DNA of 64,000 nt from Ilyobacter polytropus DSM 2926 (GTDB lineage Bacteria > Fusobacteriota > Fusobacteriia > Fusobacteriales > Fusobacteriaceae): contig NC_014632.1 of NCBI RefSeq assembly GCF_000165505.1, positions 248,001 to 312,000 of the forward strand, in the 5' to 3' direction. Below are positions 26,350-28,229 of the stretch, one piece after another. Within the stretch, counting starts at the first letter, position 1. Each line of letters begins with the position of its first letter. The notes under the pieces were generated by a model, which did not search any database, was not told the DNA's origin, and saw nothing but the letters and a program-made list of their open reading frames with translations. The translations under genes and the position numbers were made by a program.

Positions 26350-26378
26350 TTGACATTTCATTCGGAAACGAATATAAT
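26350..26378 (+). promoter_or_regulatory. Consensus promoter with embedded MarR operator
   Basis: TTGACA and TATAAT, both perfect, are 17 bases apart. Between them, ending on the first base of the -10 box, is the perfect inverted repeat ATTCG-GAAA-CGAAT (26360-26373). This is a strong promoter that is shut when a dimeric regulator binds. The same operator recurs before each of the three small secreted-protein genes. Confidence 0.85.
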
Positions 26379-26414: not shown

Positions 26415-26861
26415 ATGGATATAAAAGATTCTGTAATAGGAGAAGCTTGTGCACTGGGAATTATCAGGCATATAAGTGAAGAATTTGGAGATTATCTGGG
26501 AAAAGAACTCAGAAGAAGAAAAATGCCTATACAGGTAAAACATGCGGGACTTTTTATGATTCTTTTTTCTAAAGGTGAAAAAATTGAATTTAAAGAGTTG
26601 GCTCGTATATGGAGAAAATCAAAATCTACTCTTTGTGACATTACATCTAAGTATGCAGATGAAAAACTTATTAAAAAAACAAACTGCTGCTCTGATAAAA
26701 GGAATGTTTATGTAGAAATTACTGAAGAAGGTCTAAAATATAAGAAAGATTTTAATGAGATAAGTGAAGCTTTTTTAAAAAAGGCAACTTCAAATCTATC
26801 TGATCAACAAGTTGAAGATTTAAAATTTATTTTAGATAAAATGATTAAAGCCTTTATATAA
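26415..26861 (+). CDS. MarR-family transcription regulator with a Cys-Cys pair in the wing
   Basis: The 148-residue protein has the MarR layout: a dimerisation helix, a winged helix-turn-helix (about residues 55-100, FKELARIWRKSKSTLCDITSK) and C-terminal dimer helices. The wing reads TNCCSDKRNVYVEIT, where the common pattern is a DRR-type wing; Cys91 and Cys92 could be a redox or metal switch, and Cys12 and Cys74 are also present. It probably represses itself through the operator in its own promoter and controls the three downstream genes that share the operator. I chose the ATG behind GGTGGTGA over a TTG 18 bases earlier. Confidence 0.88.
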   Translation: MDIKDSVIGEACALGIIRHISEEFGDYLGKELRRRKMPIQVKHAGLFMILFSKGEKIEFKELARIWRKSKSTLCDITSKYADEKLIKKTNCCSDKRNVYVEITEEGLKYKKDFNEISEAFLKKATSNLSDQQVEDLKFILDKMIKAFI

Positions 26862-26931
26862 TTTGTTTATTTATGGGAAAAAAGTTGTTGTTAAGATTTC
26901 ATTTTATGAAGTAAAACTCAAATATCTTAAC

Positions 26932-26955
26932 AATAACTAACCGTTATTTTTTAAA
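26932..26955 (+). terminator. Terminator after marR
   Basis: AATAAC-taacc-GTTATT is followed by a T run. Just before it is a wider stem TTGTTAAGAT/ATCTTAACAA with a 26-base loop. Confidence 0.6.
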
Positions 26956-27029
26956 CTATATGATGAACAGAATAGTCTAATTTAGTGAAGTTAGAAAAGT
27001 TAGTTTTTTAGATTTGAATATAGAAAAAC

Positions 27030-27077
27030 CCCTTAAAACTTCCAAACTCTCGCAAAGTTAAATAAGAAAATTAAGGG
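27030..27077 (+). repeat. Third copy (B) of the CTCTCGCAAAGTT stem-loop motif
   Basis: AACTCTCGCAAAGTT (27045-27059) lies in the loop of CCCTTAA/TTAAGGG. Upstream bases resemble copy A (AGAAA.CC.CC pattern, then TTcCAAACTCTCGCAAAGTT), so the shared part is longer than the core, roughly 35 bases. The rest of the stretch between marR and the first small gene is AT-rich and shows no reading frame. Confidence 0.5.
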
Positions 27078-27195
27078 TAGATGTTAGGATGATGTCGTTA
27101 TTTCTTTTTCATTTTTATTTTTTCAAAGAATGGTTCGAAAATGGATGAGATTCAGATTTATTTCAGTTTTTGGTTGTTATTTTTTTACCCATATC

Positions 27196-27209
27196 ATTCG
27201 TTATCGAAT
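27196..27209. promoter_or_regulatory. MarR-type operator before small secreted-protein gene 1
   Basis: ATTCG-TTAT-CGAAT has the same perfect arms as the marR operator with a different centre, 88 bases before the first gene. The -35 and -10 boxes here are not clear. Confidence 0.7.
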
Positions 27210-27297
27210 AATTTGGGTTTGAAATAAACTTTCTAAATAATATTCTAGAATTTAATTTAAATAAAAATAAAAAATTAAAATACAGGAGATGAGAATT

Positions 27298-27510
27298 ATG
27301 AAAAAAACAATATTAGGATTGATGTTAATAGTAGGATCTTTATCATTAGCCAATGACAGGCTAGACAGAGGAGAGCAAAAGTTTTTTGAATGGCAGAACA
27401 GTAACCTTGCTAAGCAGGAAAGAGTCGCAGATGAAAACTTAAGTAGAAAGGTAAAGGAATTAAAAGTCGAAACTAATGAAATTATGAATGAAAGAGGTTC
27501 TAACAGATAA
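27298..27510 (+). CDS. Small secreted helical protein, tandem copy 1
   Basis: The 70-residue product has a signal peptide of about 18 residues (KKTILGLMLIVGSLSLA) and a mature part of about 52 highly charged residues that should be one long helix. Hydrophobic positions L30, L37 and I44 of the mature chain follow a heptad, as in a coiled coil. It has no cysteine. I do not recognise a family; the build recalls the secreted helical adhesin FadA of Fusobacterium, but it is about half as long and I see no clear alignment. The start is the ATG nine bases after AGGAG; another ATG directly abuts that site. The MarR-type operator lies upstream. Confidence 0.8.
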   Translation: MKKTILGLMLIVGSLSLANDRLDRGEQKFFEWQNSNLAKQERVADENLSRKVKELKVETNEIMNERGSNR

Positions 27511-27527
27511 ATTTTTTTCAAGTCAAC

Positions 27528-27541
27528 ATTCGGAAGCGAAC
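27528..27541. promoter_or_regulatory. MarR-type operator before small secreted-protein gene 2
   Basis: ATTCG-GAAG-CGAAC keeps the full left arm and four of five bases of the right arm. It follows the stop codon of copy 1 by 17 bases. Confidence 0.65.
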
Positions 27542-27603
27542 AATAGATGCATTTGAGCATAATTTAAATAAAATAAAAAATTAAAATACAGGAGATGAGA
27601 ATT

Positions 27604-27816
27604 ATGAAAAAAACAATACTAGGATTGATGTTGATAGTGGGATCATTATCATTAGCCAATGATAGGCTAGATAGAGGAGAGCAAAAGTTTTTTGAATGGC
27701 AGAACAGCAACCTTGCTAAGCAGGAAAGAGTCTCAGATGAAAACTTAAGTAGAAAGGTAAAGGAATTAAAAATCGAAACTAATGAAATTATAAATGAAAG
27801 AGGCTCTAACAGATAA
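27604..27816 (+). CDS. Small secreted helical protein, tandem copy 2
   Basis: Same 70-residue protein as copy 1 with conservative changes only (Ala to Ser, Val to Ile, Met to Ile), and most base changes silent. This means that the sequence is under selection as protein. The signal peptide is identical. Identical AGGAG spacing precedes the ATG. No hairpin terminator separates it from copies 1 or 3, so the three may also be read as one mRNA. Confidence 0.8.
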   Translation: MKKTILGLMLIVGSLSLANDRLDRGEQKFFEWQNSNLAKQERVSDENLSRKVKELKIETNEIINERGSNR

Positions 27817-27833
27817 ATTTTTTTCAAGTCAAT

Positions 27834-27847
27834 ATTCGGAAACGAAC
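27834..27847. promoter_or_regulatory. MarR-type operator before small secreted-protein gene 3
   Basis: ATTCG-GAAA-CGAAC matches the marR operator at 13 of 14 positions. It stands at the same place relative to the preceding stop codon as in unit 2. Confidence 0.65.
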
Positions 27848-27920
27848 AATGGATGCATTTGAGCATAATTTAAATAAAATAAAAAATTAAAACTTTAAAA
27901 AAGTACAGGAGATGAGAATT

Positions 27921-28133
27921 ATGAAAAAAACAATACTAGGATTGATGTTGATAGTGGGATCATTATCATTAGCCAATGACAGGCTAGACAGAGGAGAGCA
28001 AAAGTTTTTTGAATGGCAGAACAGCAACCTTGCTAAGCAGGAAAGAGTTTCAGATGAAAACTTAAGTAGAAAGGTAAAGGAATTAAAAATCGAAACTAAT
28101 GACATCATAAATGAAAGAGGAAGTTCTAATTAG
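27921..28133 (+). CDS. Small secreted helical protein, tandem copy 3
   Basis: The third 70-residue copy differs from copy 2 by Glu to Asp and by its last residues (GSSN in place of GSNR). At DNA level it follows copy 2 nearly everywhere, but shares two silent changes (GAC codons of the NDRLDRG stretch) with copy 1, which suggests gene conversion or unequal crossing-over. A large terminator follows the gene. Confidence 0.8.
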   Translation: MKKTILGLMLIVGSLSLANDRLDRGEQKFFEWQNSNLAKQERVSDENLSRKVKELKIETNDIINERGSSN

Positions 28134-28178
28134 TTAGATATAATAGGTGACTTAAACGCCTAATTTTTACTTTGTTAA

Positions 28179-28229
28179 GAGCCTTCATAAAAATGTATAA
28201 TTAACTTACATTTTTATGAAGGCTCTTTG
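28179..28229 (+). terminator. Long hairpin terminator after the triplicated genes
   Basis: An 18-bp perfect stem (GAGCCTTCATAAAAATGT and its complement) with an 11-base loop is followed by TTTGT. The inner part shares 16 bases with a hairpin-like stretch at 14263-14278. Confidence 0.8.

Follow-up and report, generated by a model that had tools for sequence, protein, structure and literature searches.

The locus lies in a window of 64,000 nucleotides (the whole stretch of DNA that was analysed), which belongs to chromosome I (2,046,464 bp) of the 3,132,314-bp genome of Ilyobacter polytropus CuHbu1, a strict anaerobe of class BSL-1 from marine anoxic mud (PMC3035301). Three ORFs in tandem on the forward strand (27298–27510, 27604–27816 and 27921–28133) code 70-residue proteins that are ~96% identical. 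They form direct repeat units spaced by 306 and 317 bp, each of which includes its upstream region and ribosome-binding site. An AGGAG found 9 nt before the ATG at 27298 makes this start of copy 1 preferable to the in-frame upstream ATG at 27289. The precursors carry an 18-residue signal sequence (MKK, a hydrophobic core, and a cleavage site between SLA and ND) coded by 27298–27351, 27604–27657 and 27921–27974, respectively, leaving a mature part of ~52 residues whose carboxyl terminus is altered in copy 3. The three near-identical genes and the exported product of this size, both described in an earlier sequence-only reading, are thereby confirmed. A search of the whole I. polytropus genome revealed no additional copy. 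The array is followed by a probable terminator (28177–28227), a 21-bp perfect inverted repeat preceding T-rich sequence, whose hairpin is kept with changed bases in the congeners G042 and G043. Upstream of the array and on the same strand is found a gene coding a MarR-type regulator of 148 residues (26415–26861), followed by a possible terminator or attenuator (26883–26938, forward strand) with a 15-bp inverted repeat that is partly kept in G042. The range originally delimited, 27298–28133, covers the three peptide genes and omits the regulator, the four operators described below and the terminator. Rfam has no match in the 64-kb window.

The palindrome RTTCG-N4-CGAAY (RTTCGNNNNCGAAY) has four sites in the 3.13-Mb genome, all at this locus (26360, 27196, 27528 and 27834). 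Note that the motif was first recognised and defined on these loci, which in part accounts for its presence here, but not for its absence from the rest of the genome or its recurrence in other genera. The marR promoter (26350–26378, forward strand) is a perfect TTGACA-N17-TATAAT (12/12) with the operator ATTCGGAAACGAAT (26360–26373) in its spacer, the classical position for a repressor; the same composite is present at marR in nine of nine genomes. The peptide genes are preceded, on the forward strand, by the operators ATTCGTTATCGAAT (27196–27209, copy 1), ATTCGGAAGCGAAC (27528–27541, copy 2) and ATTCGGAAACGAAC (27834–27847, copy 3). The first lies within a promoter-like TTTACC-N17-AATAAT (27184–27212) and after a T tract (27180–27186); the T tracts of copies 2 and 3 are at 27512–27518 and 27818–27824. 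A T tract ~8–9 nt before a variant operator is thus a feature of all three Ilyobacter copies, and also of nearly every later copy in genus g14. A weaker operator-like site, GTTCGAAAATGGAT, is located at 27133–27146 (forward strand), 8 nt 3' of a T tract. The variant or extended operator pattern has 16 sites in 12 genomes; 14 belong to promoters of marR or of peptide genes, and two lie inside ORFs. The promoter-operator composite is found at 15 places in nine genomes, all at marR or at the first or solo peptide gene, and the reversed-pattern control at none. In G057 the composite led to a marR gene that is interrupted by the end of the contig and had escaped the protein search; its start was identified by translation. 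This provides an independent check of the operator. The order of genes and sites makes it very probable that the MarR protein controls its own gene and the peptide genes. The strong regulator postulated at the outset is supported as a dedicated one, by the adjacency of marR and by the operators at both marR and the peptide genes.

A profile of the regulator matches MarR proteins of the PDB at 8.5e-10, while Pfam MarR_2 gives 13.6 bits, under the cut-off of 27. Its AF2 model (pLDDT 84, pTM 0.75) has the canonical winged-helix fold with amino- and carboxyl-terminal dimerisation helices, and the top Foldseek matches are all MarR structures, including oxidised E. coli MarR. The model places C74 within helix 70–82, the predicted recognition helix (KSTLCD), and C91 in the wing loop. 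Both cysteines are invariant in the eight array-linked MarR proteins (8/8), a set that includes the one from G061, whose operator-bearing peptide sits on another contig. They are both missing in the four same-genome MarR paralogues without arrays (4/4) and in three more distant homologues. A second I. polytropus MarR paralogue without the two cysteines (L057:6673–7101; C1, ~1764672–1765100) is coded by a gene that precedes a permease-like gene and whose promoter contains the related site GTACGGATTCGGAT. Comparison of 26415–27260 with the corresponding region of G042 (L049, 6127–6940) gives a dS of 0.066 for marR versus 0.75 for the nearby ligA, and this near-identity at silent sites points to recent interspecies exchange of the marR block.

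A single peptide gene is found in each of the congeners G042 and G043 (80% and 56% identity, respectively), where it is likewise flanked by a MarR-type gene and ligA. The copy number in relatives, whose comparison had been suggested, is therefore one in each of these species and three in I. polytropus. Propionigenium maris DSM 9537 (G053) codes five small exported proteins of two unrelated groups directly after marR. Its copies 2–5 have no operator of their own and may depend on the first promoter for their transcription. The peptide genes that follow marR in genus g14 number four (G055), three (G059) and two (G054), while in G061 marR has no adjacent array and a solo peptide copy that bears the operator is found elsewhere. 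MarR-linked arrays of one to five small exported proteins thus exist in three independent genera, within unrelated chromosomal contexts, which identifies the regulator-peptide pair as the element that is kept. The regulator, the operator and the architecture persist across genera; the context and the mature peptide sequences differ. Dosage by tandem copies, as proposed initially, is supported by the independent recurrence of tandem amplification in other genera. No conserved neighbour besides marR, be it an immunity, processing or exporter gene, is found beside the arrays of g1, g13 and g14. Mature parts from different genera give no reliable alignment; the case for a common function therefore rests on synteny, and that for a common ancestry of the peptides on synteny together with the operator. 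The RG/D-F motifs that the mature parts share are suggestive only, and homology is not claimed.

Scanning of GTDB contigs with the peptides identified no relative, and with the MarR protein only P. maris and one MAG. Viral contigs have no match, leaving a phage origin unsupported. The g14 peptide profile (A4) matches many genomes outside g1 and g14, but these hits are short amino-terminal matches in ORFs of 90–700 residues and reflect leader similarity; weak matches in the FadA-bearing G081 (E 0.008–0.05) are attributed to chance. Solo relatives of the g14 peptide are scattered in G054, G055 and G059 (L006, L007, L014, L027 and L096). The operator is missing before the first four and none is apparent before L096. 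The regulon thus does not include the whole family, and the solo copies without operator may be under other control. In G043 an insertion of ~520 bp with 34-nt imperfect terminal inverted repeats (L050:5866–6386) separates the operators from the peptide gene. G055 also carries another amplified array of exported peptides (L029:1501–2914), composed of tandem small lipoproteins with near-identical leaders and an OmpA-like protein at its end.

The differences between the Ilyobacter copies were compared at the codon level. Copies 1 and 2 are separated by 8 synonymous and 3 non-synonymous changes (dN/dS 0.08, Fisher p 1e-4), copies 1 and 3 by 9 and 10 (dN/dS 0.23, p 0.003), and copies 2 and 3 by 6 and 7 (dN/dS 0.26, p 0.02). 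The significant synonymous excess indicates purifying selection on the copies at the protein level, in agreement with the sequence-only reading that protein function is selected. Its further statement that the changes are mostly silent applies to copies 1 and 2 and fails for copy 3 with its changed carboxyl terminus. Between G042 and G043 the non-synonymous rate of the peptide is ~10 times that of ligA (odds ratio 10, p 1e-18) and exceeds that of marR (p 4e-4); the dN/dS between species nevertheless stays below 0.5 despite this fast evolution. Variation between species is mostly in the mature part, including carboxyl-terminal indels, and the leader is conserved. Copies within one genome are nearly identical, whereas mature parts from different genera have no confident alignment, a pattern that indicates repeated independent amplification or gene conversion of the peptide copies.

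The mature peptides of the different genera have a GRAVY of -0.7 to -1.7, 29–46% charged residues and mostly no cysteine; that of Ilyobacter has a net charge of 0 and no cysteine. AF2 predicts one long helix for the whole precursor, but its five models agree poorly (mean pLDDT 62–79, pTM 0.34) and are uninformative on mechanism. The helical hydrophobic moment of the peptide is not above that of shuffled sequences, which leaves the heptad-like hydrophobics perceived in the first reading unsupported. Composition, poor agreement of the models and hydrophobic moment together are more easily reconciled with a polyampholyte that is disordered or marginally helical than with a coiled coil, the hairpin of an adhesin or a cationic pore former. 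The peptides have no Pfam match at E ≤ 10, and their matches in NCBIfam, PHROGs and the PDB are non-significant and below cut-off, so the earlier failure to recognise a family is borne out.

These observations, all drawn from sequence, can be combined in a self-contained, autoregulated and thiol-switched regulon that provides the envelope with small protective polyampholytes, a reading that we favour at a little under even odds as a whole. The MarR protein would bind ATTCG-N4-CGAAT palindromes in the marR promoter and upstream of each peptide gene, leading to repression; the position and conservation of the operators are observed, and from them we infer binding and repression. A thiol-reactive signal (an oxidant, sulfane sulfur, an electrophile or a thiophilic metal) would then modify C74/C91 and release the repressor. 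Thiol sensing, a specific proposal drawn from residue conservation, is somewhat probable: the two cysteines co-occur with the arrays and lie in two elements predicted to contact DNA. The amplified array would next yield abundant small peptides, exported by the Sec pathway and cleaved to soluble, strongly hydrophilic polyampholytes; their sequence is observed and their location is predicted to be periplasmic. The peptides might finally shield envelope proteins and membranes through bulk physical properties, in an LEA/Asr- or YhcN-like manner. Such action would fit a high dosage and a sequence that drifts fast as long as length, charge and hydrophilicity stay within limits. This last step is speculative and held with less than even confidence; it draws on composition, dosage and the analogy with SlyA-YhcN.

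The main rival is that the peptides are secreted for antagonism or signalling, like bacteriocins or pheromones, and released when the MarR protein senses a competitor metabolite. The conserved leader and diverging mature parts would be expected of such peptides, as would the excess of non-synonymous change over ligA and marR and the independent amplification of near-identical copies in several species. However, the dN/dS remains below 0.5, the arrays lack a conserved immunity, processing or exporter gene, the leader is of the common Sec type and the cell has an outer membrane, and the near-zero net charge and low hydrophobicity are unlike those of common antimicrobial peptides, which together make this explanation improbable. 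The first reading had named both a protective envelope component and a toxin-like peptide; sequence does not separate the two, although the near-zero charge, the missing immunity or exporter neighbour and the MarR regulator favour the protective one. The fast divergence and carboxyl-terminal indels, the single copy in two sister species and the lack of a copy next to marR in G061 could also be those of a weakly constrained orphan family whose copies are recent, nearly neutral duplicates, with only the regulator being of importance. This is quite unlikely in view of the synonymous excess between copies, the operator before each Ilyobacter copy, the recurrent amplification and the regulator-peptide linkage kept in three genera.

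The peptides also recall FadA-type adhesins or surface structural subunits in being fusobacterial, exported, predicted to be helical and coded by tandem copies, as FadA genes often are. Such homology had been named at the outset as evidence against a new system. The FadA profile PF09403 matches 34 of 98 Fusobacteriota, which serves as positive control, but neither the peptides nor any protein in the I. polytropus genome. The mature FadA is a two-helix hairpin of ~100 or more residues; the peptides have about half this length, a single predicted helix that is not significantly amphipathic and no sequence match. An adhesin subunit of FadA type, as suggested initially, is therefore not supported and very improbable. 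In the phylum search PF09403 was absent from all genomes of the three array-carrying genera. A different objection concerns the signal: the regulator may sense a ligand, such as an aromatic acid or a substrate, with the cysteines having a structural role. The usual binding site of small organic modulators in MarR proteins is the dimer interface (PMC11211675), and many of the structural neighbours found by Foldseek are ligand-bound structures. The invariance of both cysteines and their confinement to array-linked regulators speak against it, making ligand sensing a possible but rather unlikely alternative.

The favoured reading, a thiol-switched regulon of protective peptides, has partial counterparts in known systems. 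Asr/LEA-like periplasmic or desiccation protectants are likewise short, very hydrophilic and highly charged; they are stress-linked and could act by bulk properties. No sequence relation to them is shown. Hydrophilins are defined by strong hydrophilicity and high glycine, and the peptides have a GRAVY of ~-1.5 but only 3.8% glycine, below the usual content, and are not assigned to this hydrophilin/LEA-like class. An LEA peptide is reported to raise acid tolerance (PMC12871917). Control of a small stress-protective protein by a MarR-family regulator has a precedent in SlyA-YhcN/DUF1471 of Yersinia and other enterics, in which SlyA binds the promoter of the gene for a small protein that cells under stress require for their integrity (PMC13033631). 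DUF1471 is, however, a globular domain for which a dedicated Pfam profile exists (PF07338); this matches neither the three copies (E ≤ 10) nor their relatives. SlyA is a global regulator without a tandem array, whereas regulation in Ilyobacter seems to be local and to include the marR gene itself. Some MarR proteins are known to sense ROS or sulfane sulfur through two cysteines (PMC11211675). The Ilyobacter protein, with an identity of only ~15–18%, resembles E. coli MarR and P. aeruginosa MexR in its predicted winged-helix fold and autoregulation and in the proposed cysteine sensing of oxidants or sulfane sulfur (PMC11211675). MarR and MexR control efflux pumps, while the Ilyobacter regulator adjoins peptide genes, and their cysteines (C30/C62 in MexR, C80 in MarR) differ in position from C74 of the recognition helix and C91 of the wing.

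MarR-controlled small stress proteins are thus a known kind, and a search of the open-access literature found nothing on a local MarR regulon with an amplified, fast-evolving array of orphan peptides and the C74/C91 pair. The confinement of the operator pattern to this locus of the genome suggests a compact switch that has not been described before and probably serves to protect the envelope. It is conceivable, though doubtful, that it represents a new class of peptide system, for envelope defence or for action between cells, among marine anaerobic Fusobacteriaceae, in which a two-cysteine MarR protein would sense oxygen, polysulfide or electrophiles and control only itself and a copy-variable array of polyampholytes, with dosage and not sequence being selected. 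Three nameless small genes become in this manner a defined and testable regulon, in which a regulator with two candidate sensor cysteines is joined by its operator to an amplified array of effectors. The operator, which already located the missed marR fragment of G057, offers a route to fast-evolving effectors that escape homology searches. If the proposal is true, the dosage of small disordered or helical peptides would be one way in which an anaerobe can protect its envelope.
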